A DNA stretch of 36,493 bases from a virus: positions 1-36,493 of the IMG/VR virus record IMGVR_UViG_3300027987_000122; one strand, written 5' to 3'. Made by a program: the position numbers and the translations under genes. This document shows positions 1,415 to 14,329 of this stretch, piece after piece; positions within the stretch are counted from its first letter, which is position 1, and each line of letters begins with the position of its first letter. The notes under the pieces were generated by a model. It did no database searches and was not told where the DNA came from. It was given only the letters and a program-made list of their open reading frames with translations.

Positions 1415-1551
1415 CGGCGCACCCATTCGTAGGTGTGTCCGTTGACCCGGTATTTTCCGCGCAGTTGCGGCACGTCGTGCTCGCGCACCGGTCTCCCGTG
1501 CTCATCTAGCTCTTGGAAGCGCTCCCATCCGGAAACGTCCTTGTAGCTCAT
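1411..1551 (-). CDS. Hypothetical protein, 46 aa
   Basis: Starts at ATG 1549-1551 and overlaps the upstream TGA as ATGA. The sequence MSYKDVSGWERFQELDEHG... ends with KYRVNGHTYEWVRR, a pattern of alternating hydrophobic and polar residues that suggests a small beta-rich fold. No family recognised. Confidence 0.6.
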   Translation of the reverse strand: MSYKDVSGWERFQELDEHGRPVREHDVPQLRGKYRVNGHTYEWVRR

Positions 1552-1865
1552 CGTCGCACCTCGCAGCGCTTGGCGACGCCGTCCGACGTGGAGCATACCC
1601 ACCCCTTGTCATGCGACAGTCGAGGGGCGTGAGGGGCCGCCGGAGCTGGCGGCCCGACCGGGAGCAGGTAGTCGGCAGGAGACAGCGTCTCAGCCCTCGC
1701 CACGCCCACCCCGAGCAGCACACAGGCGCCCAATGCCAAGCCAACCACCGACCGCACCACACGAGCATAGCGACGGCTCTGGACAGGTGCCTCGACAGGC
1801 TCCGTGGTGTGGATGAGTGAGCGGAATTGTGACAATTCAGCGTTGACTTGATTGATGTGTGACAT
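1548..1865 (-). CDS. Single-pass membrane protein with C-terminal cysteine pair, 105 aa
   Basis: ATG at 1863-1865 with GAGGT about eight bases upstream. Residues 1-30 are hydrophilic, 31-35 basic (RRYAR), about 36-57 a hydrophobic span (VVRSVVGLALGACVLLGVG), then a Pro/Ala-rich stretch and a C-terminal segment with two Cys (CSTSDGVAKRC). The arrangement fits an N-in, C-out inner-membrane protein, and the two Cys could form a disulfide outside the cytoplasm. It is the first gene after the operator region at 1911-1938. Function unknown. Confidence 0.68.
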   Translation of the reverse strand: MSHINQVNAELSQFRSLIHTTEPVEAPVQSRRYARVVRSVVGLALGACVLLGVGVARAETLSPADYLLPVGPPAPAAPHAPRLSHDKGWVCSTSDGVAKRCEVRR

Positions 1866-1892
1866 GTGCGTACCTCAGTTTCTAGCGATGTC

Positions 1893-1904
1893 GTGGCGTA
1901 CCAC
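1893..1904. promoter_or_regulatory. GTGG-CGTA-CCAC inverted repeat in the leader of the leftward genes
   Basis: A perfect 4-bp inverted repeat around CGTA lies between the TCAAG operator cluster and the start codon at 1865. It could be a second protein site or a small mRNA hairpin. Short, so low confidence. Confidence 0.3.
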
Positions 1905-1910
1905 GTTTAC

Positions 1911-1938
1911 CTTGATTCCGTCAAGAACTTTTCTTGAC
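1911..1938. promoter_or_regulatory. TCAAGA operator cluster upstream of the leftward genes
   Basis: Three half-sites follow one another at the same 5-bp spacing: CTTGA (1911-1915), TCAAGA (1921-1926) and TCTTGA (1932-1937). The last two form a perfect palindrome, TCAAGA-N5-TCTTGA, extended by one more pair (GTCAAGA/TCTTGAC). The same palindrome lies over the -10 boxes of the rightward promoters at 3131-3147 and 5005-5021. On the minus strand the right arm contains TTGACG, usable as a -35 box, but no good -10 is seen 16-18 bp on. Probable repressor or activator site shared by both directions. Confidence 0.6.
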
Positions 1939-2052
1939 TTTAGATGGGAGGCCACCGATTCGGCGTGGCCTCGCCGCCCTATCCGCACAGCGTCGCGGAC
2001 CCGTCGTGACTGCTTCGGCGCCACACCCTAGAGCTGCGTCTACCCCAACCCC

Positions 2053-2355
2053 TCACACCCCAGCCAGCCGCCGCGCCTCCTCCCACAGTCGACCCTTATC
2101 GTCGCTCCCCATCACCGCAGCATGAATGCCGTGAGCCAGCTCCCACCGAGCATCCCACACGAGCTCCGACGCCCCCTCATCCGCCACAGGGCGCACCTCA
2201 ATCCCCCCATCATTGCCCCATGTGAGCGTGAACTGCACACCCGAGTCCCTCAGTGTGGTGATAGCGTCCAGAGCCCACCAATCACCCAGGGTCTCATGGG
2301 TCCCCGATTCGTAGGTGGCAGAGTGGAGCTTGATGCATTCGATGTAGATGGTCAT
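2053..2355 (-). CDS. Hypothetical protein, 100 aa
   Basis: ATG at 2353-2355, with GGAGA nine bases upstream on the minus strand. MTIYIECIKLHSATYES... has an acidic, tryptophan-containing body (WWALDAI, LVWDARWELAHGIHAAV) and looks like a compact soluble mixed alpha/beta protein. No family recognised. It is the most promoter-proximal leftward gene, separated from the next by a 187-bp control region. That gap (1866-2052) contains no gene of its own. Confidence 0.65.
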   Translation of the reverse strand: MTIYIECIKLHSATYESGTHETLGDWWALDAITTLRDSGVQFTLTWGNDGGIEVRPVADEGASELVWDARWELAHGIHAAVMGSDDKGRLWEEARRLAGV

Positions 2356-2364
2356 GCGCGGGTC

Positions 2365-2384
2365 TCCTTGACTTGAGTTAAGGA
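2365..2384. promoter_or_regulatory. Imperfect palindrome TCCTTGAC-TTGA-GTTAAGGA
   Basis: Eight-base arms with one mismatch around TTGA, just upstream of the start of the gene at 2053-2355. The arms contain CTTGA, related to the TCAAG half-site of the operators at 1911-1938, 3131-3147 and 5005-5021 but with a different spacing. Possibly a degenerate operator for the leftward transcript. Confidence 0.35.
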
Positions 2385-2678
2385 ACTTGCTGAATCAAAC
2401 TGACAGCTAGACTCAATGCAGGGCACATGCCAACGCAGCGACCCGATGCTACCCGGCTTGCGTGGCCTTCCGGAGAGAGCGACGATTCAGCGAATCGACG
2501 CGTTTTCGCGCTGTTCCGTGACGCTGAACAGGCCGGCAGTGACCAGAAGCGAGCTGAGAGATGAGAGGAAAGGAGCTCCACTCCCTCTCCAACTGGTTGA
2601 ACCACTGACGCTTTACGTCACCGGTTTCAGCGCTTTCGCCTGCTGCGCCGGAAAGCCTAGCAATGCTGCGCACTTGCA

Positions 2679-2697
2679 GGTGACAATTCTCGTCACC
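2679..2697. promoter_or_regulatory. GTGAC-N7-GTCAC palindrome, copy 1
   Basis: GGTGAC-AATTCTC-GTCACC: six-base perfect arms with a 7-bp centre identical to copy 2. A further half-site, TTTCGTCACC, follows about 15 bp downstream (about 2710-2719). Confidence 0.6.
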
Positions 2698-2790
2698 ACG
2701 TGTGCCCAGTTTCGTCACCCCGCCCATGCGAACGGAAACTCATGCCGGAATGCACATCGCTCCCGGGCGAGTATCCGCGCCCATGTGCAG

Positions 2791-2806
2791 AACGACAATA
2801 GTCGTT
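2791..2806. promoter_or_regulatory. AACGAC-AATA-GTCGTT inverted repeat
   Basis: A perfect six-base inverted repeat around AATA in the divergent region. Its GAC/GTC arms resemble the neighbouring GTGAC palindromes, but its spacing differs. Possible protein-binding site. Confidence 0.4.
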
Positions 2807-2915
2807 CATGCAATTCCGCGCACTTGCGCTCCTGGCCGCTGTTAACCCGCGCCGATTGCGCCTCGGGGGGTTGCGTTTCGCGCTGCGTCAGGTGTAGCCC
2901 GGTGTGCTCCGATGT

Positions 2916-2938
2916 GTGGTGACAATTCTCGTCACCAC
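2916..2938. promoter_or_regulatory. GTGAC-N7-GTCAC palindrome, copy 2 (best match)
   Basis: GTGGTGAC-AATTCTC-GTCACCAC: perfect eight-base arms. It is followed by GCGCTGCGTCAACGTCG, which reappears in near-identical form after copy 3, so a longer unit of about 82 bp was duplicated. Confidence 0.65.
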
Positions 2939-3000
2939 GCGCTGCGTCAACGTCGACTGCTCGCTGCGCCTACGTGTGGCGAGATGTGTGCTGGTGTGTG

Positions 3001-3017
3001 GTGACAATTTTCGTCAC
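3001..3017. promoter_or_regulatory. GTGAC-N7-GTCAC palindrome, copy 3
   Basis: GTGAC-AATTTTC-GTCAC, 82 bp from copy 2, preceded by the same TGTGTG stretch and followed by GCACAGCGTCAACGCCG. Ninety-nine bp upstream of the -35 box of the first rightward promoter. Confidence 0.6.
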
Positions 3018-3055
3018 AAAGCACAGCGTCAACGCCGCGCCGCTCGAGGACACCC

Positions 3056-3093
3056 GGCACCCCTGGGGGAGAAGGGGTCGGTGAGGGGGTGCC
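3056..3093. other. GGCACCCC / GGGGTGCC stem-loop
   Basis: Perfect eight-base GC-rich arms (3056-3063 and 3086-3093) with a 22-base G-rich loop, immediately upstream of the first rightward promoter. It may act as a terminator of any transcript entering from the left or as a structural element. Confidence 0.4.
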
Positions 3094-3115
3094 ACCACCT
3101 CTCGCGAAAATGCCA

Positions 3116-3147
3116 TTGCCAAAAAACGCGTCAAGGATTATTCTTGA
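3116..3147 (+). promoter_or_regulatory. Rightward promoter P1 with operator over the -10 box
   Basis: TTGCCA (3116-3121), 17 bp, TATTCT (3139-3144). The palindrome-like TCAAGG-N5-TCTTGA (3131-3147) overlies the -10 box, the classic placement for a repressor. Only seven bases separate the -10 box from the ATG at 3152, so the predicted start site falls on the A of the ATG and the mRNA would be leaderless. P2 at 4991 has the same -35, spacing, operator and ATG distance. Confidence 0.72.
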
Positions 3148-3151
3148 TGGC

Positions 3152-3367
3152 ATGAGCAACACGATGAGCATGGGCTACGGCTCCTGGTTTTGGGCTGTCG
3201 GAATGGCGCTGGGCGGAAAGCGGACTGGCAGGCCCTGCTACCCGCGTCTGGCGATTGGCATGAACGACGAGGGAATGCTGGTCTGGTTCCAGGACGGAAA
3301 AGAAGAGCAGGGCATCCTCTTCGACCGCGATGACATCGAGGCTTTGGACTGGGAGATTCGAGAATGA
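3152..3367 (+). CDS. DUF2829/Tad2-like protein, 71 aa; candidate anti-Thoeris factor
   Basis: ATG 3152 is chosen because the P1 -10 box ends seven bases upstream; there is no ribosome site, consistent with a leaderless mRNA. Residues 12-27 read SWFWAVGMALGGKRTG and the C-terminus reads FDRDDIEALDWEIRE. The pattern A-L-x-G-K-R early and (E/D)-D-x-x-A-x-DWE at the end is typical of DUF2829 proteins, which include Tad2, a phage protein that sequesters the cyclic ADP-ribose-type signal of Thoeris defence. A paralogous C-terminus is in the gene at 5027-5416. Being first behind an early-type promoter suits a counter-defence role. Family call is by eye; function is inferred. Confidence 0.55.
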   Translation: MSNTMSMGYGSWFWAVGMALGGKRTGRPCYPRLAIGMNDEGMLVWFQDGKEEQGILFDRDDIEALDWEIRE

Positions 3368-3801
3368 CGGAAGTGAAGTGGACGGTGCACAAGACGCTGA
3401 TGCGCAGCGAAGGCTACGAACTGCAGCGGGATGGCACGTGGGAGTTGTGGCCGGTGTTGTCGCGCAGCGCTCGCTTCATGAACGAGGGAGACGCCGAGCG
3501 GGAATGCAGGCGCCTTGGGTTGAAACTGGTGGACGAGTTCACCGAGGAGAAGCCCGCGTTACAGCCGGCGAAAACGCGGGTGAAGCTGACGTTCAACGGC
3601 ACCTTTGAAGCCGTGAACGACTGGAAAACGAGAGCCACGCCAATCCACGCGCTGCCAATCTGGGAGAACAACGTCCCGTTTTGCACACGTGACGACTGCC
3701 CCGAGTACGACGGCAAGCGCTGCAAGTTGATGGGATTCAGGCCAGACGGTATCTGCGAGCCGACCGTTGAAGCGATGGGCAAACTGCTGGAGGAGTCATG
3801 A
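3364..3801 (+). CDS. Hypothetical protein with C-terminal four-cysteine motif, 145 aa
   Basis: Overlaps the upstream gene as ATGA. The N-terminal half (about 1-65) is a small mixed-fold region with GTWELWPVLSRSARF and a helix EGDAERECRRLGLKL. The C-terminal part has CTRDDCPEYDGKRCKLMG and then ICEPTV, that is C-x4-C-x7-C-x10-C, which could bind zinc or an iron-sulfur cluster. The phrase DCPxYDGKRC...ICEP is one I associate with uncharacterised phage proteins. Function unknown. Confidence 0.68.
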   Translation: MTEVKWTVHKTLMRSEGYELQRDGTWELWPVLSRSARFMNEGDAERECRRLGLKLVDEFTEEKPALQPAKTRVKLTFNGTFEAVNDWKTRATPIHALPIWENNVPFCTRDDCPEYDGKRCKLMGFRPDGICEPTVEAMGKLLEES

Positions 3802-4067
3802 AACAAGCAAAGATGCTTACTGAGCACGGCGTGTTGGTGCTGCGTATTGCCGAGCGCCTCTGTGCCATGCTCGCCATCCAGGAGAAGAAGCTCGAGGCAG
3901 ACCTGGCTGCGTTGGAGAGTGAGCGCGCCAAACCAACCATCGAGTTCATGATAGAGACAGGGCAGGTGTACCCGCCGTACAGATGGGTGGTAGCACTCTC
4001 GCCGAGGTCCCGCGCCGAGGCCGAAGACTACGCCGCCAAGCGCGGCTGCAAGGCGGTGTTCAAGTGA
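3798..4067 (+). CDS. Hypothetical helical protein, 89 aa
   Basis: ATGA overlap with the gene before it. Residues 10-45 form a long helix (HGVLVLRIAERLCAMLAIQEKKLEADLAALESE), probably a coiled coil, followed by YPPYRWVVALSPRSRAEAEDYAAKRGCKAVFK, which looks like a small beta-alpha unit. No family recognised. Confidence 0.66.
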   Translation: MKQAKMLTEHGVLVLRIAERLCAMLAIQEKKLEADLAALESERAKPTIEFMIETGQVYPPYRWVVALSPRSRAEAEDYAAKRGCKAVFK

Positions 4068-4429
4068 GCCACAGTGTTGATGAACAATATGATGTCTACA
4101 AGGAGAGTAGACGCAAAGCGCGCAAGCCTCATGGTTGCCACGCCTGCGGTGAGACAATTCGCAATGGGGACAGCTACACCGTAGCCAGCATCGTGTTCGA
4201 CGGCTCGGCGCGCTCTGTCAAACGATGCGCTCGCTGCCAGGTTCTCCATGAGCACTTGCGTGAGCTCGGTGCCATGTACGACATGTGGCCAAACGAGCGA
4301 CTCGCATGCGGAATCCTCTACGAGGACGAGTGGGGCCGGGTGCCCGATGACGTTGCGCGGCTGGCCTTTGCGCTTCCCGGCGAAACCGCTTGTCGGGTCG
4401 TGACCGATGGTGGACATCCTCTTCGCTGA
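4064..4429 (+). CDS. Zinc-ribbon phage protein, 121 aa
   Basis: GTG start at 4064 overlaps the previous stop as GTGA. The segment ARKPHGCHACGETIRNGDSY, followed about 25 residues later by CARCQ, gives two Cys-x2-Cys knuckles around a short beta sheet. This matches a common family of small phage zinc-ribbon proteins with the theme KARKxHxCxxCGxxIxxGxxY. Such proteins likely bind nucleic acid or protein; no specific role is known to me. The 3' end overlaps the next gene by 23 bp. Confidence 0.68.
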   Translation: MSHSVDEQYDVYKESRRKARKPHGCHACGETIRNGDSYTVASIVFDGSARSVKRCARCQVLHEHLRELGAMYDMWPNERLACGILYEDEWGRVPDDVARLAFALPGETACRVVTDGGHPLR

Positions 4430-5021
4430 CCCAGACGGCTGCTACGCCGGTATGCCGATCTGGGACGAGTGCAGAGACGCCAGGCTCTACCTGGGGCCAG
4501 GCCCGGTCGTTGCTCATCCCCCATGCAACCTGTGGGTCAACCTCATGGCGCAATGTTACCAGCGTTACGGCCGTCCCGATCACCTGCGTCCTGCGTGGTA
4601 CCCAGGGGGCACCGACGGCGGCTGTTTCGAATCTGCTCTGTCCTCCGTGCGGCGCTGGGGAGGCGTCCTCGAGCATCCGGCTTTCTCCCACGCTTGGGCA
4701 GCACACGGACTTCAGCGCCCGGTTCCTGGTGGCTGGTGTGTGCGGCACACCGCCCATGGAAGGGAGTGGACCTGTGAGGTCTGGCAGGCAGCCTACGGGC
4801 ACCGCGCACGCAAGCGAACCTGGCTTCTCTACAGCGGCAAACAGGAGCCCTTCGAACTGCGCTGGGAGCAACCCACAGGTACCCACCAGGTGGGCTGGTT
4901 CGACCGCATCAAGCCGACCGTCGGCAAGCGCGAGGCTTCCGCCACCCCGGTCGAGTTCCGCGACGAACTCATCCGCCTTGCAGAACACTCTTGCCAAACC
5001 GCAATCAAGAACCTATCTTGA
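4407..5021 (+). CDS. Methyltransferase-like phage protein, 204 aa
   Basis: Contains VVAHPPCNLW (residues 34-43), GGVLEHPAFSHAW (85-97) and YGHRARKRTWLLY (130-142). These blocks define a frequent phage family that looks like a reduced DNA methyltransferase fold: HPPC resembles the catalytic Pro-Cys loop of cytosine-C5 enzymes and RARKRTW resembles their Q-R-R-R motif. A usual SAM-binding FxGxG motif is not visible, so SAM binding and activity are uncertain. The stop codon lies inside the operator of promoter P2, so the promoter for the next gene is embedded in this coding end. Confidence 0.6.
   Translation: MVDILFADPDGCYAGMPIWDECRDARLYLGPGPVVAHPPCNLWVNLMAQCYQRYGRPDHLRPAWYPGGTDGGCFESALSSVRRWGGVLEHPAFSHAWAAHGLQRPVPGGWCVRHTAHGREWTCEVWQAAYGHRARKRTWLLYSGKQEPFELRWEQPTGTHQVGWFDRIKPTVGKREASATPVEFRDELIRLAEHSCQTAIKNLS
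4991..5021 (+). promoter_or_regulatory. Rightward promoter P2 with operator over the -10 box
   Basis: TTGCCA (4991-4996), 17 bp, TATCTT (5014-5019). A perfect palindrome TCAAGA-N5-TCTTGA (5005-5021; arms extend to AATCAAGA/TCTTGATT) covers the -10 box. Seven bases separate the -10 from the ATG at 5027, as in P1, so a leaderless transcript is expected. The promoter lies wholly inside the 3' end of the methyltransferase-like gene. Confidence 0.75.
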
Positions 5022-5026
5022 TTGGC

Positions 5027-5416
5027 ATGAGACGCATTGCGAAAGACACGCCGGTCGGAACGCGGGTGCTGGTAGTCCGCGACGACTATTCGATCGCGCG
5101 AGACACGACCCGCGATATTCCTCGCGAAGTTGCCATGCTGAGTCATCAGCAATCTTGCTGGTTGGTTGACCTCTGCGGCGAGTTCCCGTGCGCCAGCATC
5201 GACCGCGTCTACCTAGACGAGCCAGAGCCAGGCACCTGCGCATGGGCCCACGTACAAGCATTGGCAGGGAAGCGCGTGCGAAGGAGCTGCCATGTGTTGT
5301 TGTACGGTTTACATGGCGACGGATTCGCTTGGTTCAGAGCCGACGGAAATCCTGTCCGTGGGTTGTATTTGGATGCAGAGGATGCTGAAGCCACCGACTG
5401 GGAGATCGCCGAATGA
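5027..5416 (+). CDS. Two-part protein with C-terminal DUF2829/Tad2-like domain, 129 aa
   Basis: The ATG at 5027 is set by promoter P2. Residues 1-66 form an extra N-terminal region (TPVGTRVLVVRDDYS...) with no recognised family, possibly a small beta barrel. Residues about 70-129 repeat the pattern of the 3152 gene: WAHVQALAGKRVRRS early and YLDAEDAEATDWEIAE at the end, with GDGFAWF matching DEGMLVWF. It is therefore a paralogue of the 3152 product with an added domain. If the Tad2 assignment holds, it would be a second, differentiated sequestering protein; the ligand cannot be predicted. Confidence 0.55.
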   Translation: MRRIAKDTPVGTRVLVVRDDYSIARDTTRDIPREVAMLSHQQSCWLVDLCGEFPCASIDRVYLDEPEPGTCAWAHVQALAGKRVRRSCHVLLYGLHGDGFAWFRADGNPVRGLYLDAEDAEATDWEIAE

Positions 5417-5682
5417 AGCAACGAAGCACAGTCATCTTGTGGCGAGCAGGGCCGTTCGGGCTCCCGCAGGCAGTGAAGGCTCTGAGCGCCGACGAGAAGC
5501 GCGTCGTGCTCGCCCCGGGCGAAGGATGGCACCCGACGCGTTCGCCGAAGTACAAGCGCCACGGGGCTGTCTACTCGTTCTTCGGCACTGAGCTCGAAGC
5601 TCTGCTGCACCTACGCGAGAAGGACAAGGCGCCGCGCCAGGGGCTTCTCGAGCGGATAGCAGAGCTCGATGGCGAGGCGTAG
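5413..5682 (+). CDS. Hypothetical protein, 89 aa
   Basis: ATGA overlap with the Tad2-like gene before it, so the two are co-translated. The protein has a short N-terminal strand (STVILWRAG), a basic middle (HPTRSPKYKRHG) and a C-terminal helix (TELEALLHLREKDK...LLERIAELDG). Not recognised. The tight coupling suggests a function linked to the upstream protein. Confidence 0.65.
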   Translation: MKQRSTVILWRAGPFGLPQAVKALSADEKRVVLAPGEGWHPTRSPKYKRHGAVYSFFGTELEALLHLREKDKAPRQGLLERIAELDGEA

Positions 5683-5857
5683 ACGCCGCTACTGCACAGT
5701 CTTCAGCGGGGGGCCGAAGGCCTGTTACCCGAACTACGTCCAAGCCAAGTACAACGCCGACCTGATGGCGGCAAAGCATCCCTCGATGCTGTTCGAGGTG
5801 TTCAAGTGCTCCGCGTGTCGCGCGTGGCACGTCGGAAAACCCAAGGAGCGCCAGTGA
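5669..5857 (+). CDS. Small zinc-finger-like protein, 62 aa
   Basis: Overlaps the previous gene by 14 bp. Basic start MARRRRRYC, then CYPNYVQAKYNADLMAAKHP and KCSACRAWHVGKP near the end. The Cys-x2-Cys-x2-WHxG ending with upstream Cys residues matches a widespread small phage protein type that probably folds around one zinc ion. Likely nucleic-acid binding by its charge; no specific role is known. Confidence 0.66.
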   Translation: MARRRRRYCTVFSGGPKACYPNYVQAKYNADLMAAKHPSMLFEVFKCSACRAWHVGKPKERQ

Positions 5858-6150
5858 AAGAGTTCCAAAACAACCTGTACCGGGTCCGCGTTGGGCTGCA
5901 GCGCAAGGTGCTCTCCGTCGACCTTCTGTCGCAAGACGACCCCGGCAGCTCCCGTGAGGTCTTCGTGCGCGCCATGAACCCTCATCACGCCCACCAGAAG
6001 GCGCTGAACATCGTGCGGACACGAGCCCGCACAGTGCGGAGGGAAGCGCTCCAGCGCCGCGCCCTGCTGGCAGCAGTCTTCCAGCGGTTCGTGGAGTCAA
6101 CCACCCAGAAGCAGTTCTCAGAATGGCTGAAGACGGAGATGTCCAAGTGA
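5854..6150 (+). CDS. Hypothetical basic protein, 98 aa
   Basis: GTG start at 5854 overlaps the preceding stop as GTGA; the longer upstream frame would run through the previous gene. MKEFQNNLYRVRVGLQRKVLSVDLLS is beta-like and NPHHAHQKALNIVRTRARTVRREALQRRALLAAV is a long Arg-rich helix. Could bind nucleic acid; unrecognised. Confidence 0.64.
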   Translation: MKEFQNNLYRVRVGLQRKVLSVDLLSQDDPGSSREVFVRAMNPHHAHQKALNIVRTRARTVRREALQRRALLAAVFQRFVESTTQKQFSEWLKTEMSK

Positions 6151-6536
6151 AGTTCGCACGCGTGCCGTTCATTTCGGCCAGTGGCGAGAGACAGACACTG
6201 GTCTACTGCACCGAGTGCAGTGAGGGCATGCCGGCGTGTGTCGACCGCGGCGGCGAGGAGCTGCTGGACGCATGGGAGCAGTCGCACGTGTGTCCAGGCG
6301 GGGGCTGCGACTTTGGCACTGACCCGGAAGACTCCGAGCACTTGCTGGAACTGAGACAACTCATCGACAGCGTCTCGGAGTTGTTCGGCGAGAGAATCCA
6401 CCAGGCCATTCGAGACGAGGGTGACTACCCAAGACTACTGCGTCTCTCGCTGCGAGAGGCATGGTCGGCTGGGTACCTCGCTGGTCAAACGCAAGACGGT
6501 GTACCGCAACGCAATCCGTGGGGGTACGCGTATTGA
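6147..6536 (+). CDS. Hypothetical acidic protein, 129 aa
   Basis: GTG 6147 overlaps the prior TGA (GTGA); ATG at 6123 is the alternative. The N-terminal third has YCTECSEGMPAC and then CPGGGC, four to five Cys that may bind a metal. The rest is acidic and helical (ELRQLIDSVSELFGERIHQAIRDEGD) and ends in a Tyr/Trp-containing tail (NPWGYAY). No family recognised. Confidence 0.64.
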   Translation: MKFARVPFISASGERQTLVYCTECSEGMPACVDRGGEELLDAWEQSHVCPGGGCDFGTDPEDSEHLLELRQLIDSVSELFGERIHQAIRDEGDYPRLLRLSLREAWSAGYLAGQTQDGVPQRNPWGYAY

Positions 6537-7294
6537 CCAAGCAAGTCGAATTCACGCCTGAAGAGTGGCGCGAACAGCCGAGTGGCGTGCGGCGTAAAGT
6601 GACCCATGAGTGCGACAATCCAGCCGACTGCTACGTGTTCGTTTGCCGCGACACGCAGGGCTTCTCATGCGGCCGGTACAGTTGCCAAGCGGTGGGGAGC
6701 GCTGGCGACAATCGGTGCTCCGAATGCTGGTGTCGGCGCGAAAATGCGCTGAAGCGCGAGCGCGTCGACGCCAGCGATCGAATTCACTCGGTCACGTTCG
6801 CCCACAACGAGGGTTGGGCGCTTTACTCACCGTGCAAGCGGTACCGGTATGCGCTCGCATGGCCGACTGGATGCAACCAGCACCGAATCGCGCTTCTCGT
6901 TGCCGCCAACCCAAGCACAGCAACCGAGCACGACACCGACCCGACTGTCGCTCGATGGGTGGAGCGGTGCGCTCGCATGGACTACGGATGGGCGCTCGTC
7001 GCGAACGTCCGAGCGTGGCGAGAGACCGACCCGGCGAAGGTGCCCGCGGACCCGGAGGCGATCGAGCACTCCCCCGCCGTCAACGACGCGTTCATTCTCG
7101 AGTTGGCCAAGCTGTCGCAGTTGGTTGTCTGCGGCTGGGGAAAGCTCGGGGGCGAGCGCGGCACTGAGGTGCTCTCGACGCTCAGCTACGAGGGCGTGAG
7201 GCCCCACGCGCTGAAACTCAACCGCGATGGTAGCCCCACGCATCCACTGTACCTGAGCTACTCGCTGCAGCCTTTTCCGATGAGGTCGATGTGA
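6533..7294 (+). CDS. DUF1643 family protein with Cys-rich N-terminal extension, 253 aa
   Basis: The TTG start at 6533 overlaps the upstream stop as TTGA, in line with the ATGA/GTGA couplings around it; an upstream in-frame ATG (6461) would overlap the previous gene by 76 bp. Residues about 85-253 carry DUF1643 hallmarks: LLVAANPSTA (121-130), HDTDPTVARW (133-142), VANVRAW (156-162), VVCGWGK (198-204) and HPLYLSY (237-243). Residues 20-70 hold eight Cys, possibly a zinc-binding add-on not usual for the family. DUF1643 has no established activity, although it is common in phages. Confidence 0.72.
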   Translation: MTKQVEFTPEEWREQPSGVRRKVTHECDNPADCYVFVCRDTQGFSCGRYSCQAVGSAGDNRCSECWCRRENALKRERVDASDRIHSVTFAHNEGWALYSPCKRYRYALAWPTGCNQHRIALLVAANPSTATEHDTDPTVARWVERCARMDYGWALVANVRAWRETDPAKVPADPEAIEHSPAVNDAFILELAKLSQLVVCGWGKLGGERGTEVLSTLSYEGVRPHALKLNRDGSPTHPLYLSYSLQPFPMRSM

Positions 7295-7755
7295 CACGCA
7301 ATCCCCAATCAGAACAGGAGGACTGCCCCAACTGCGTAGATGTCCTACCCATCGGCGACTGGCAGGACATCTACGCGCTCGACCAGCACCACGCAATCGT
7401 GATTTCGCGGATGCGACGTGATGAGGAGCGAGTGATGGCAACGGAAGAACAGAACGAAGAATGGGCAATCGTCGAGCTCATGGGGCATCGCCGCTTGGCG
7501 GGGCGCGTGAGCGAGGTCAAACGCTTTGGTGTCGAGCTTTTGCGTCTAGACGTGCCTAAGGCAGACGGATTCACTACGCAGTTCTACAATGGAGCGGCGC
7601 TGTACTGCGTAACGCCGACCACCCAGGACATCGCGCGCGCCGTGGCCGCTGGTTCGCAGCCGGCCCCGGTCAGTCGATTCGAGTTACCTCCGGCTCGTAC
7701 CGCGGTGAACCCAGAAGACGGCGAGTCAGAAGACGACGAACTTGGGGGTTTCTGA
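7291..7755 (+). CDS. Conserved phage protein (WAIVELMGH type), 154 aa
   Basis: GTG 7291 overlaps the previous stop as GTGA. The recognisable conserved part starts near residue 57: EWAIVELMGHRRLAGRVSEV, GVELLRLDVP and FYNGAALYCVTP. This block is a common uncharacterised phage protein; ATG 7435, preceded by GGAGCGAG, would start just ahead of it and is an alternative start. The first 48 residues contain CPNC. The C-terminus is acidic. A small beta-rich protein of unknown role. Confidence 0.68.
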   Translation: MTRNPQSEQEDCPNCVDVLPIGDWQDIYALDQHHAIVISRMRRDEERVMATEEQNEEWAIVELMGHRRLAGRVSEVKRFGVELLRLDVPKADGFTTQFYNGAALYCVTPTTQDIARAVAAGSQPAPVSRFELPPARTAVNPEDGESEDDELGGF

Positions 7756-8096
7756 TGAACAGCACGATGGACATCGACAAGCTGAAGGCGCACATGGAGG
7801 AGCAGGCGCAAAAAGAGAAATTCTATGAAGATCCAGCCCGCGCCCACTACGAGCCAATCGTCGCGGAGCTCAGGGCGCGGGTGGCGGAGCTGGAGCGCAA
7901 ACTACAACGGCACAACCATGGCGCACTGATGGACTATCAAGCGGCAACAACTGCGCTTGATGCGCTTGGTCTTGGCGCCGCGCCAACAACTAGGGAAGCG
8001 ATCGACATGATCGTAGCGGCACTGCATGCGCGCCACGTCGACCCGCGCATCGCCGAACTGGAGCGCATGGAGGATGGGCTCGATGACGAACAATGA
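7755..8096 (+). CDS. Coiled-coil hypothetical protein, 113 aa
   Basis: ATG shares its A with the upstream stop (TGATG). Residues 1-50 are a charged helix (DIDKLKAHMEEQAQKEKF, then VAELRARVAELERKL) with heptad spacing. The second half has a small Ala/Leu-rich domain. No family recognised. Confidence 0.66.
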   Translation: MNSTMDIDKLKAHMEEQAQKEKFYEDPARAHYEPIVAELRARVAELERKLQRHNHGALMDYQAATTALDALGLGAAPTTREAIDMIVAALHARHVDPRIAELERMEDGLDDEQ

Positions 8097-8679
8097 CGAA
8101 CGATGGTGCACTGAGCCGTGGCACCAGGAGTTTACCATTGGCGTGGAGTTCTTCGGGAGCACCAAGCCTATCATGGTACCATTCCACACTGGCAAATGGC
8201 TCCGTCGCGCAGCTGTTGTTGAGCATGTGACAGAACAGGCGAAGCGCATCGACGACCTGGAATCCCAGCTCAATCAGCTGAAGCACGACCGTGACGGCTG
8301 GAGAGACCTCTACACGGTGACGGCCGAGGAACAGGCGAAGCGCATTGCGGAGTTGGAAGCCCAGTTATCTGTCAGCGTGTTCGTGCGGGATCTGAGCGAC
8401 GAGGAACTCCTGACGATTCGCGCGGACCGCTGGCGAGATGCACACAACCGGGAAGAGGCAGACGAAACGGAAGCGGCTGCTATTCGCGCCTGCATCGCTG
8501 CCGCCACTCGCCTGCCCGAGGGTGCAACCCGCGCCACGCAGCGAATCAACGGCGCTGGATGCCTCGGGTTCGAAAGCTCCGACGGGTCCGAGTCGGTGGC
8601 GCTCGCGTTGCCAGATGGGCCGGCGGTGGTGCACATCGTCGTCGTTCCGGACCCAGACGCCGACCTTGACTGGAGCTAA
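8083..8679 (+). CDS. Hypothetical coiled-coil protein, 198 aa
   Basis: I place the start at ATG 8083 (MTNNDERWCTEPW), which overlaps the previous gene by 14 bp; the upstream extension is out-of-frame shadow. Residues about 45-105 contain two similar heptad segments, EQAKRIDDLESQLNQL and EEQAKRIAELEAQL, followed by an Ala/Glu-rich helix and a C-terminal beta region (VALALPDGPAVVHIVVVPDPD). Not recognised. Its stop is just downstream of the -35 of promoter P3. Confidence 0.66.
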   Translation: MTNNDERWCTEPWHQEFTIGVEFFGSTKPIMVPFHTGKWLRRAAVVEHVTEQAKRIDDLESQLNQLKHDRDGWRDLYTVTAEEQAKRIAELEAQLSVSVFVRDLSDEELLTIRADRWRDAHNREEADETEAAAIRACIAAATRLPEGATRATQRINGAGCLGFESSDGSESVALALPDGPAVVHIVVVPDPDADLDWS

Positions 8680-8694
8680 GCAAGAATCTAAGCT
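8666..8694 (+). promoter_or_regulatory. Rightward promoter P3 (leaderless type, degenerate operator)
   Basis: TTGACT (8666-8671), 17 bp, TAAGCT (8689-8694). The same geometry as P1 and P2. GCAAGAATCTA at 8680-8690 aligns with TCAAGAACCTA of P2, but the right arm TCTTGA is absent, so the operator is only half kept. The ATG at 8701 lies six bases after the -10 box, again giving a leaderless prediction. Confidence 0.55.
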
Positions 8695-8700
8695 ATGATC

Positions 8701-9036
8701 ATGCCGCGATACAGCGTAAGACTGGCAGAGATCGAAGCGGGGCTCCAGGACAGCCTGACGGCGCTGAAGACGCTTCGGTCTGACCTGGAGTGCTCACCCG
8801 AGGACAAGGTGCGCGGGCAGCACGTGGACAGGCTGCTCGAGCTCCTGGAGGCGTCCGGCAAGCGCCCGATGTGGGTAGAGGAGATCCAGGGACGCCTCGG
8901 CTGCACGGCGAACACCTGCTACACGATTCTGAGCCGGCTGTGCAAGGACGGCAAGGTCACCCGGATCACGCGGGGGTGCTACATCCACACCAGCGTCGGC
9001 CAGGACGTGATCGACAAGCTACGAGAGCACCTGTGA
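8701..9036 (+). CDS. Winged helix-turn-helix protein, 111 aa; candidate regulator
   Basis: Two ATGs (8695, 8701) are available; 8701 matches the -10 to ATG spacing of P1 and P2. Residues 1-50 are an amphipathic helix region (RLAEIEAGLQDSLTALKTLRSDLE). Residues about 57-95, MWVEEIQGRLGCTANTCYTI and then LSRLCKDGKVTRITRGCYI, read as helix, turn, recognition helix and beta wing. It is likely a DNA-binding transcription factor. Its own promoter carries half of the shared operator, so it is the best local candidate for the protein that binds TCAAGA-N5-TCTTGA; that link is inference. Confidence 0.62.
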   Translation: MPRYSVRLAEIEAGLQDSLTALKTLRSDLECSPEDKVRGQHVDRLLELLEASGKRPMWVEEIQGRLGCTANTCYTILSRLCKDGKVTRITRGCYIHTSVGQDVIDKLREHL

Positions 9037-9296
9037 GCAGATGGTCGAAGTCGCTGACCTACCCCGGCACGGAGGGGCGAACAGAGAGCCTGATGCGCTG
9101 GGAGCACCCGGACGCATCTCTTACGCTCTACACGAAGAACGGTGACTGGTACGCGAGGTCGCATCTGTGGTCCGGTGCGCTGAACGCAAGGGACGAGGAC
9201 GAGGCGAAGCGACAGGCCTTGACCAAGCTGGGGAAAGCAGCGAAACGAATCACTGAGGCGGCGCGGGAAGCGCTGAGAGGAAATCATGGACCATAG
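9033..9296 (+). CDS. Hypothetical protein, 87 aa
   Basis: GTG 9033 overlaps the wHTH stop as GTGA. The N-terminal half is beta-like with aromatic residues (MRWEHPDASLTLYTKNGDWYARSHLW) and the second half is a Lys/Ala/Arg-rich helix. No family recognised. Co-translated with the putative regulator. Confidence 0.63.
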   Translation: MSRWSKSLTYPGTEGRTESLMRWEHPDASLTLYTKNGDWYARSHLWSGALNARDEDEAKRQALTKLGKAAKRITEAAREALRGNHGP

Positions 9297-9519
9297 CAGA
9301 CGAAAGCCGAAACAGCGAGTGAAGGACGACGTAAGGGCAGCGACGCTCCGAACGTTCCTGTGCCCAAAGTGCGGAAGCACTGAGTTCTACGCAGCGCGCG
9401 AGAACAGCGGCGAGTTCAAGCGCCGGTGCAAGGGTCAGGGGTGCAAGGTCATCTGGTCCCCTGAAGACGACGATGCGCACCTTGGGCCCGCCGCAGAGCC
9501 TGAGCCCCAGCCAGCCTGA
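9286..9519 (+). CDS. Zinc-ribbon protein, 77 aa
   Basis: Overlaps the previous gene by 11 bp. A basic N-terminus (RRKPKQRVKDD), then FLCPKCGSTEFYA and RRCKGQGCKVIW give a CPxC...C-x4-C zinc ribbon at about residues 26-57. The tail is Glu/Pro-rich. Probably nucleic-acid binding. Its last 71 bp overlap, tail to tail, the end of the leftward gene at 9449-9688. Confidence 0.65.
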   Translation: MDHSRRKPKQRVKDDVRAATLRTFLCPKCGSTEFYAARENSGEFKRRCKGQGCKVIWSPEDDDAHLGPAAEPEPQPA

Positions 9520-12513: not shown

Positions 12514-12806
12514 TGGCAAACGAAGACTTCCCGAGGCTGGACCAGAAGCTGGGCGACTCGCCCGTCAAGAAGGGCTTCGAGGCGGACTACATGAATCGCG
12601 AGCTGGTTCCAGTTGTGCGCCGCCTGATTGACCTGGTCGAGGCTTTCATGTCGAGGCCGCAGCTTCCGATTCGTGACACGACGTCTGGGGTCACGGACGC
12701 GTTGCTGGACGAGTTCGGCGACGACCCGGTGAGAGACGGCTGCCTTATCGTGTCGGAGTCGGGGCAGGTCTACGTGCGCGTCAGCGGCTCCTGGCAACTC
12801 GTGTGA
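12513..12806 (+). CDS. Hypothetical protein, 97 aa
   Basis: Its ATG shares the A of the preceding TGA (TGATG). Helical N-terminal half (ADYMNRELVPVVRRLIDLVEAFM) and a C-terminal beta hairpin-like segment (CLIVSESGQVYVRVSGSWQLV) of a type common in small phage structural proteins. Coupled by GTGA to the terminase. Role unknown. Confidence 0.63.
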   Translation: MANEDFPRLDQKLGDSPVKKGFEADYMNRELVPVVRRLIDLVEAFMSRPQLPIRDTTSGVTDALLDEFGDDPVRDGCLIVSESGQVYVRVSGSWQLV

Positions 12807-14329
12807 AGATCCACTACCGCCCCAGCGACTGGCAGACGCGCTTCCACCTGCTGGACACGAACGAGGCGCTCGGGGCGGGCGCGGCCGGCCCTGGCAAGTC
12901 GTTCTGCCTGAGCATGGACCCGATCCAGCAGCTCCGGGTAGAGGACGCTCGGATGCATTGCGACCCGAGGTCTGTCACGCACCCGGAGGACCCGCTCTGG
13001 AATCAGATCCTCGAGAACCCCATCGCGCACGGCGAGTCTCAGGGCTGGGCGCTGTTCCTGATGCGCACCTCGCCGCGCTTGGAGCAGCGCATCGCGAAGA
13101 TGCGGACCGTCTTCCTGGCGATGGATCCGCACGTCAAGGAGGACAGGCAGCAGAGCATCTTCACGTTCTCGTGCGGGTTCCGCTACCAGTTCGGGCACTG
13201 CCACCTCTTCAACGACTTCGAGCGGTACATGTCGAGCGAGTATTCCTGGATTGGCTTTGACGAGCTCGTTCACTTCGAGGAGGAGCAGTACTTCCAGATC
13301 AAGTCCCGCCTTCGGTCGAGTGACCCCGTCATGCGCGGGATGGTCAAGACGCGGGCCATGTCCAACCCGGTGATGCGGCTGGAAGCGAACGAGACCTTCG
13401 TGAATCGAAACCCACAGTGGGTCCGCGAGTACTTCGTCGACCCCGCACCGGAGGGGAACACGCTCATCGTCAGCGAGGCGACGGACGAGAATGGCGAGGT
13501 CTTCGAGAACACCAGGATCTACTTGCCAGCCAAGCTCGACGACAACCCAGACAAGGAGTTCGTCGAGACCTACAAGCGCAACCTGCTGCACTCGAAGCCG
13601 CACATGCGCAAGGCGCTGCTGGAAGGGGATTGGTACCTCACCCCCGGGTCGTTCTTCGAGGACGTCTGGGACCCGCAGATGACGATCATCCGCCCCTTTG
13701 CTGTGCCGGATGACTGGCCCGTGTTCCGCTCGATGGACTGGGGCTACAAGGCGAAGGGCTGCATCCACTGGTGGACACTCGACCCCGACGACAACCTGAT
13801 AGGTATCCGCGAGTTCACGTTCCAAAAGAGGCTTGCGCTACAGGTCGCCGAGGACACGCGCGCCGCCGAGAAGGCCATGGGTCTGTGGGGGTACCGCGGC
13901 TCACGCATCACCGGCCCAGCCGACACACAGCTCTGGGAGGACCGCGGCGGGTCAGGGAGAACCAAGGCGGAAGACTTCGCTTCTGTCGGAATCAACTGGG
14001 TCCAGGCGAACAAGAAGTCCAGGAAGCGAAACGCCCGGTTCATGACGGAGCGCCTGCACGCCACGATGACGCGGCGGCGCAAGGGCGGGCTGTACCTGTT
14101 TTCGAGCTGCATCATGCTGGCGCGCACGATTCCAGCCATGCAGTCCAACAAGGAGGACATGGAGGAGCCCGCCGACGGGGGGGAAGACCACTGGCTGGAC
14201 TCCGCGTTCTACGCGTGCAATTACGCGTCCTACGGTCGCTCCGGGGTTCCCCGGATGGACTCGCGCTTCCGCCCCGACGACGACGATGAGCCAGAGGACT
14301 TTCGCGGACGCCTGGGGTATGGCATTTGA
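12803..14329 (+). CDS. terL: Terminase large subunit, 508 aa
   Basis: GTG 12803 overlaps the prior stop as GTGA. The ATPase has a Walker A-like GAGAAGPGKS (residues 24-33, Lys32) and Walker B WIGFDE (149-154, Asp153-Glu154). The nuclease half shows RSMDWGY (309-315, Asp312), GPADTQLWED (371-380, Asp374) and EDHWLDSAFYA (461-471, Asp462/Asp466), the spaced acidic residues of the RNase H-like fold. It is the motor that packs DNA through the portal and cuts the concatemer. Length is typical. Its TGA stop lies within TTGACA at 14326-14331, a possible -35 box. Confidence 0.9.
   Translation: MKIHYRPSDWQTRFHLLDTNEALGAGAAGPGKSFCLSMDPIQQLRVEDARMHCDPRSVTHPEDPLWNQILENPIAHGESQGWALFLMRTSPRLEQRIAKMRTVFLAMDPHVKEDRQQSIFTFSCGFRYQFGHCHLFNDFERYMSSEYSWIGFDELVHFEEEQYFQIKSRLRSSDPVMRGMVKTRAMSNPVMRLEANETFVNRNPQWVREYFVDPAPEGNTLIVSEATDENGEVFENTRIYLPAKLDDNPDKEFVETYKRNLLHSKPHMRKALLEGDWYLTPGSFFEDVWDPQMTIIRPFAVPDDWPVFRSMDWGYKAKGCIHWWTLDPDDNLIGIREFTFQKRLALQVAEDTRAAEKAMGLWGYRGSRITGPADTQLWEDRGGSGRTKAEDFASVGINWVQANKKSRKRNARFMTERLHATMTRRRKGGLYLFSSCIMLARTIPAMQSNKEDMEEPADGGEDHWLDSAFYACNYASYGRSGVPRMDSRFRPDDDDEPEDFRGRLGYGI

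Follow-up and report, generated by a model that had tools for sequence, protein, structure and literature searches.

An uncultured virus carries what seems to be one small module in two copies, in each of which a promoter overlapped by an operator-like palindrome directly precedes a gene for a minimal Tad2-like domain of about 60 residues. The reading offered here, namely that this module was duplicated and that its products counter host defense, can be given as a whole a probability of about one half. The window, i.e., the whole stretch of DNA analyzed, is the entire IMG/VR uncultured-virus record IMGVR_UViG_3300027987_000122 (36,493 bases). Its large terminase (12803–14329) shows ~28% identity to those of HMO-2011-type phages of marine alphaproteobacteria, and no near relative of the record was found among phage records, with the terminase search included. 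The features that bear on the argument are as follows:

1921–1937, no strand: third perfect copy of the palindrome TCAAG-N7-CTTGA, upstream of the minus-strand ORF 1548–1865
3116–3144, plus strand: sigma-70-type promoter TTGCCA-17-TATTCT, its -10 ending 7 nt before the ATG of w71
3131–3147, no strand: operator-like palindrome TCAAGGATTATTCTTGA, overlapping the -10 of the w71 promoter
3152–3367, plus strand: w71, an ORF of 71 amino acids, probably a minimal Tad2-like protein by profile-profile comparison, with no Pfam hit
4991–5019, plus strand: sigma-70-type promoter TTGCCA-17-TATCTT, its -10 ending 7 nt before the ATG of w129
5005–5021, no strand: operator-like palindrome TCAAGAACCTATCTTGA, overlapping the -10 of the w129 promoter
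5027–5416, plus strand: w129, an ORF of 129 amino acids with a C-terminal, probably Tad2-like domain paralogous to w71
8666–8694, plus strand: promoter TTGACT-17-TAAGCT, of similar layout and without a palindrome, preceding a winged-helix gene

Both ORFs are present where the sequence-only reading had placed them, and its claim that they are paralogous, with ALxGKR at the front and DxEAxDWE at the end, is borne out: w71 and the C-terminal half of w129 are 43% identical over 63 residues (E 2e-12 in a single comparison), and can thus be taken as true paralogues. Among the residues they share are A-L-x-G-K-R-x-x-R-x-C near the start of the domain and D-x-E-A-x-D-W-E-I-x-E where it closes, and a search of the whole record recovered only these two copies of the domain. 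The N-terminal region of w129, about 66 residues long, matched no family in Pfam, PHROG, NCBIfam or PDB searches. The stop codon of each gene overlaps the next ATG (ATGA), and the genes downstream of w71 are dissimilar from those downstream of w129; hence, the duplicated unit was the gene with its promoter rather than any longer block.

A mechanical sigma-70 scan of positions 1500–9300 found only the promoters at 3116–3144 and 4991–5019, with about one expected by chance, while perfect copies of TCAAG-N7-CTTGA number exactly three in the window (starting at 1921, 3131 and 5005), whereas 300 trials of a Markov null over the whole window gave 0.02 on average and never more than 1. As each -10 lies only 7 nt before the ATG, the transcripts of w71 and w129 may fairly be inferred to be leaderless or nearly so. 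The two genes had been proposed each to stand first behind a repressible early promoter; the promoter and the palindrome are there, while "early" and "repressible" are readings of the layout. A candidate repressor or regulator acting at the palindrome, one among possible others, is the winged-helix protein encoded at 8695–9036, which resembles AbiEi-type antitoxin regulators (AbiEi_4, E 5.6e-5, just under the Pfam cut-off) and whose own promoter nearly touches its start codon. Elsewhere among viral contigs, the promoter–operator module turned up no more often than chance would allow: the 20 contigs returned by a scan for it were judged to be chance matches, because each locus has a single palindrome. 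As a separate observation, the long gap upstream of w71 holds three copies (2680–2696, 2919–2935 and 3001–3017) of another 17-bp palindrome, GTGACAATTNTCGTCAC, which has a 5-7-5 layout like that of TCAAG-N7-CTTGA and is operator- or iteron-like.

The family to which the two proteins belong is not apparent from direct searches. Neither gave an hmmscan hit to PF11195, the Tad2-like family, even at E 10 (the curated cut-off being 25 bits), and direct searches of PHROGs, NCBIfam and solved PDB structures returned nothing meaningful for either. Their relatives were equally elusive: a search of viral contigs yielded only a chance match in an unrelated ORF (L001); tblastn of phages gave hits at chance level, the best of which (L017) lies inside a long unrelated CDS; and the 19 contigs from a scan for the N-terminal motif were judged to be chance, since none of the 19 runs on into the C-terminal motif. 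The lack of Pfam, PHROG, NCBIfam and PDB hits favors the view that there is no kinship with Tad2 at all, and that w71 and w129 are ordinary small phage paralogues whose DxEAxDWE and GKRxxR segments are convergent. Further points on its side are that the bare DxEAxDWE motif mostly retrieves an unrelated terminase, in which it lies mid-protein, and that, when a plain HMM was compared with sequences in which the motif was kept and the rest shuffled, w71 was marginal (161/3000) and w129 not significant.

Convergence is nevertheless improbable in light of what the motif retrieves when its position is considered and of how the whole domain aligns. Two sets of Tad2-like proteins were assembled for comparison. 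For the first, SPO1 Tad2 (gp34.65) was located with PF11195 and then used to collect ten further phage DUF2829 proteins, giving 11 members chosen without regard to the C-terminal motif. The second came from a scan for DxEAxDWE across viral contigs and genomes, which recovered eight proteins above the Pfam Tad2-like cut-off (L090, L091, L071, L044, L093, L165, L141 and L124), the shortest with a form of about 50 residues (L165), and several more below the cut-off for which PF11195 was the best hit; four further stretches tested gave no hit. As eight pass the cut-off and others have PF11195 as their best hit, a DxEAxDWE ending near the C-terminus is typical of Tad2-like proteins, and proteins with such an ending mostly prove Tad2-like when tested.

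Since the hhalign result varies with the details of the alignment (19% against DUF2829 with full-length untrimmed inputs and 56% with another trim), the comparison was run against shuffles in which the C-terminal motif was held fixed and everything else scrambled. Against the 11 SPO1-Tad2-derived members, the alignment of w71 and w129 gave an HHalign probability of 70%, with residues 7–63 matched to 5–72, and 1/400 of the motif-kept column shuffles reached the real score. Adding the eight motif-found members, for 19 that pass Pfam, raised the probability to 95% (0/400 shuffles), and a set of 20 members gave 96% (0/300); the eight motif-selected members alone gave a weaker result, with 21/400 shuffles reaching the score. 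Thus, the real score is beaten by none or nearly none of the shuffles even where the members were chosen without the motif. Moreover, in both w71 and w129 the N-terminal block of 19 residues aligns best where homology would place it, with A4, G11, K12 and R16 in register with PF11195 and SPO1 Tad2; with the combined profile its shuffle frequencies are near 0.01, at scores far below those of family members. The C-terminal D-x-x-A-x-D-W is likewise held in common, as DIEALDW and DAEATDW in the two window proteins. Taken together, these comparisons suggest that the domain is very probably a remote, minimal relative of PF11195/DUF2829, which would make w71 and w129 divergent versions within an already described family. 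The kinship that the sequence-only reading had asserted therefore holds as a remote, whole-domain, profile-profile match and not as one visible to hmmscan, PHROG or solved-structure searches, and the profile check against Tad2 that it had called for turned out positive at 70% and 95%, with 19% and 56% in earlier runs under other trims.

Structure prediction leaves this kinship neither confirmed nor refuted. AlphaFold2 models from two-sequence alignments reached a pLDDT of 64 for w71 but only 31 for w129, too low for a usable model; the order of elements predicted for w71, helix-strand-strand-strand-helix, is compatible with a reduced Tad2 core. A Foldseek search with the weak w71 model did not find Tad2 among solved structures, though the PDB holds it, which counts on the side of convergence, and a viral structure library returned only weak matches to the same model.

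Placed beside SPO1 Tad2 (PDB 8SME/8SMF/8SMG), which is likewise a small phage protein, the window proteins differ in lying under all direct detection thresholds and in the length of the domain, ~60 residues as against 73–89. The more consequential differences concern the pockets. In Tad2, the gcADPR pocket is formed from the beta1-beta2 loop, the beta3-beta4 loop, beta4, the beta4-alpha3 loop and alpha3, whereas the cyclic-dinucleotide site is an insertion between beta2 and beta5 (PMC12043709). Both w71 and w129 lack the GWNGKG loop and the PSQ segment, which are assigned to the Tad2 pocket regions by alignment and not from structural contacts; where GWNGKG would stand, in the beta1-beta2 loop, they have CYPRLAIG and CHVLLYGL. 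The beta2-beta5 insertion is absent as well, a domain of ~60 residues having no room for it. Some members that pass Pfam similarly lack GWNGKG (L091 and L124). Because these three elements are missing, kinship carries no known ligand over to w71 and w129.

This bears directly on the proposal of the sequence-only reading that the two proteins act as nucleotide sponges to counter Thoeris or other cyclic-nucleotide defenses, each binding a different signal, with the downstream genes forming an anti-defense island. The remote Tad2 kinship speaks for it, as does the variation of ligands within the family: SPO1 Tad2 binds gcADPR, and the ModTad2/MoTad2 protein (PDB 9EIB) of the same Pfam family binds His-ADPR (PMC13299392). 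The latter, however, matches SPO1 Tad2 directly (E 2.5e-17), whereas the window proteins match no solved chain. With GWNGKG, PSQ and the cyclic-dinucleotide insertion all absent, and with the weak model finding no Tad2, binding of a Thoeris signal or cyclic nucleotide is not supported, nor is a separate ligand for each protein. A role in sequestering immune nucleotides might be held in common with the sponges Tad1, Acb2 and Acb4, none of which had a Pfam match in w71 or w129; each sponge has its own structure, and Acb4 is without structural homology to Tad2 (PMC11722364, PMC12043709).

Nor do the neighboring genes lend the sponge proposal weight. Those in line with w71 and w129 are unassigned or correspond to DUF1643, phrog_29525, a Cys-rich protein (phrog_19515) and phrog_12600, and Pfam and PHROG searches found no anti-defense homologue among them, only unassigned PHROGs or DUF1643. 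The gene at 4407–5021 (phrog_12600, E 1e-45) has relatives of 47–63% identity in 12 unrelated viral contigs, none of which has a w71/w129 paralogue or a PF11195 match, and of 29–40% identity in microviruses, a 10.9-kb Xanthomonas phage, a 6.6-kb Rhodobacter phage, where it is annotated "putative DNA methylase", and tailed phages. Its presence in such different phages with no Tad2-like match marks it, from its sequence relatives, as mobile cargo that crosses phage classes, and it lends no support to an island. The anti-defense island was accordingly set aside, and the sponge proposal as a whole is distinctly improbable. As an aside, the product of the gene at 6461–7294 has its DUF1643 domain (residues 129–263, E 3e-24) preceded by ~120 residues with several cysteines.

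A further alternative, unlikely but deserving a serious hearing, is that the Tad2-like fold is here put to a non-nucleotide use, either binding a host protein as the anti-CRISPR AcrIIA7 does, or regulation. The missing pocket motifs are consistent with it, and a Tad2-like domain is likewise present in PDB chains labeled either AcrIIA7 or inhibitor of type II CRISPR-Cas (9KZR and the 8KBI group), which match SPO1 Tad2 by sequence; since, in addition, ligands differ between Tad2 proteins, the domain evidently serves more than one end. In 9KZR, ~48 residues precede the domain, resembling the arrangement in w129. Against this, neither w71 nor w129 has a phmmer match to AcrIIA7 among PDB chains at E 10 or a sequence match to phrog_643, the "transcriptional regulator" group that would stand for the regulatory version. 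That label is an annotation rather than tested evidence. It enters the argument through one Pfam-passing Tad2-like protein, L093, which also matches phrog_643 (E 3e-12); unless the label is mistaken, the Tad2-like proteins include some regulators.

Given the precedent of SPO1 Tad2 and MoTad2 as counter-defense proteins in this family (PMC12043709, PMC13299392) and the position of the promoters, counter-defense through binding of a ligand or protein would be the likeliest role of the pair. Under the duplicated-module reading, a unit of promoter, overlapping operator and ~60-residue Tad2-like domain would have been duplicated, with w129 gaining its N-terminal region; both proteins would be made early from leaderless transcripts under a common repressor, might form small oligomers, and would act against host defense through a small ligand or host protein that they bind. 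A bolder version, in which the pocket of the co-regulated pair has been remodeled to sequester an immune signal new to Tad2 and the extension of w129 serves in sensing or targeting, is very unlikely.

The novelty of this record lies in how far the domain has been reduced and has diverged, and in the operator common to both genes; N-terminal extensions and paired units occur elsewhere. Extensions before the Tad2-like domain are common, with annotated members running from 163 to 226 amino acids. Similar in form are minimal proteins encoded in a Patescibacteria MAG and in viral contigs (L039, L090 and L165), which have the same short domain and an EDxEAxDWE end; L090 and L165 retain a W behind R-R and clear or far surpass the Pfam cut-off, whereas in the window proteins that position is Y or H and the cut-off is not reached. 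Tad2-like domains constitute a growing class of phage counter-defense proteins, and if the link holds, a minimal branch of the family with an altered pocket escapes current annotation. Screening ligands against such minimal forms could reveal which part of the fold is required for binding, and the common operator points to joint deployment of the two copies by the phage. The presence of two copies in one phage was rejected as a novelty: 433 Tad2-like places occur in 428 phage records, so that some phages have more than one, and in one viral-contig protein (L039:7857–8220, approximate) two minimal Tad2-like units stand in tandem, the second with a sub-threshold PF11195 hit (E 3e-4) and the first with none.
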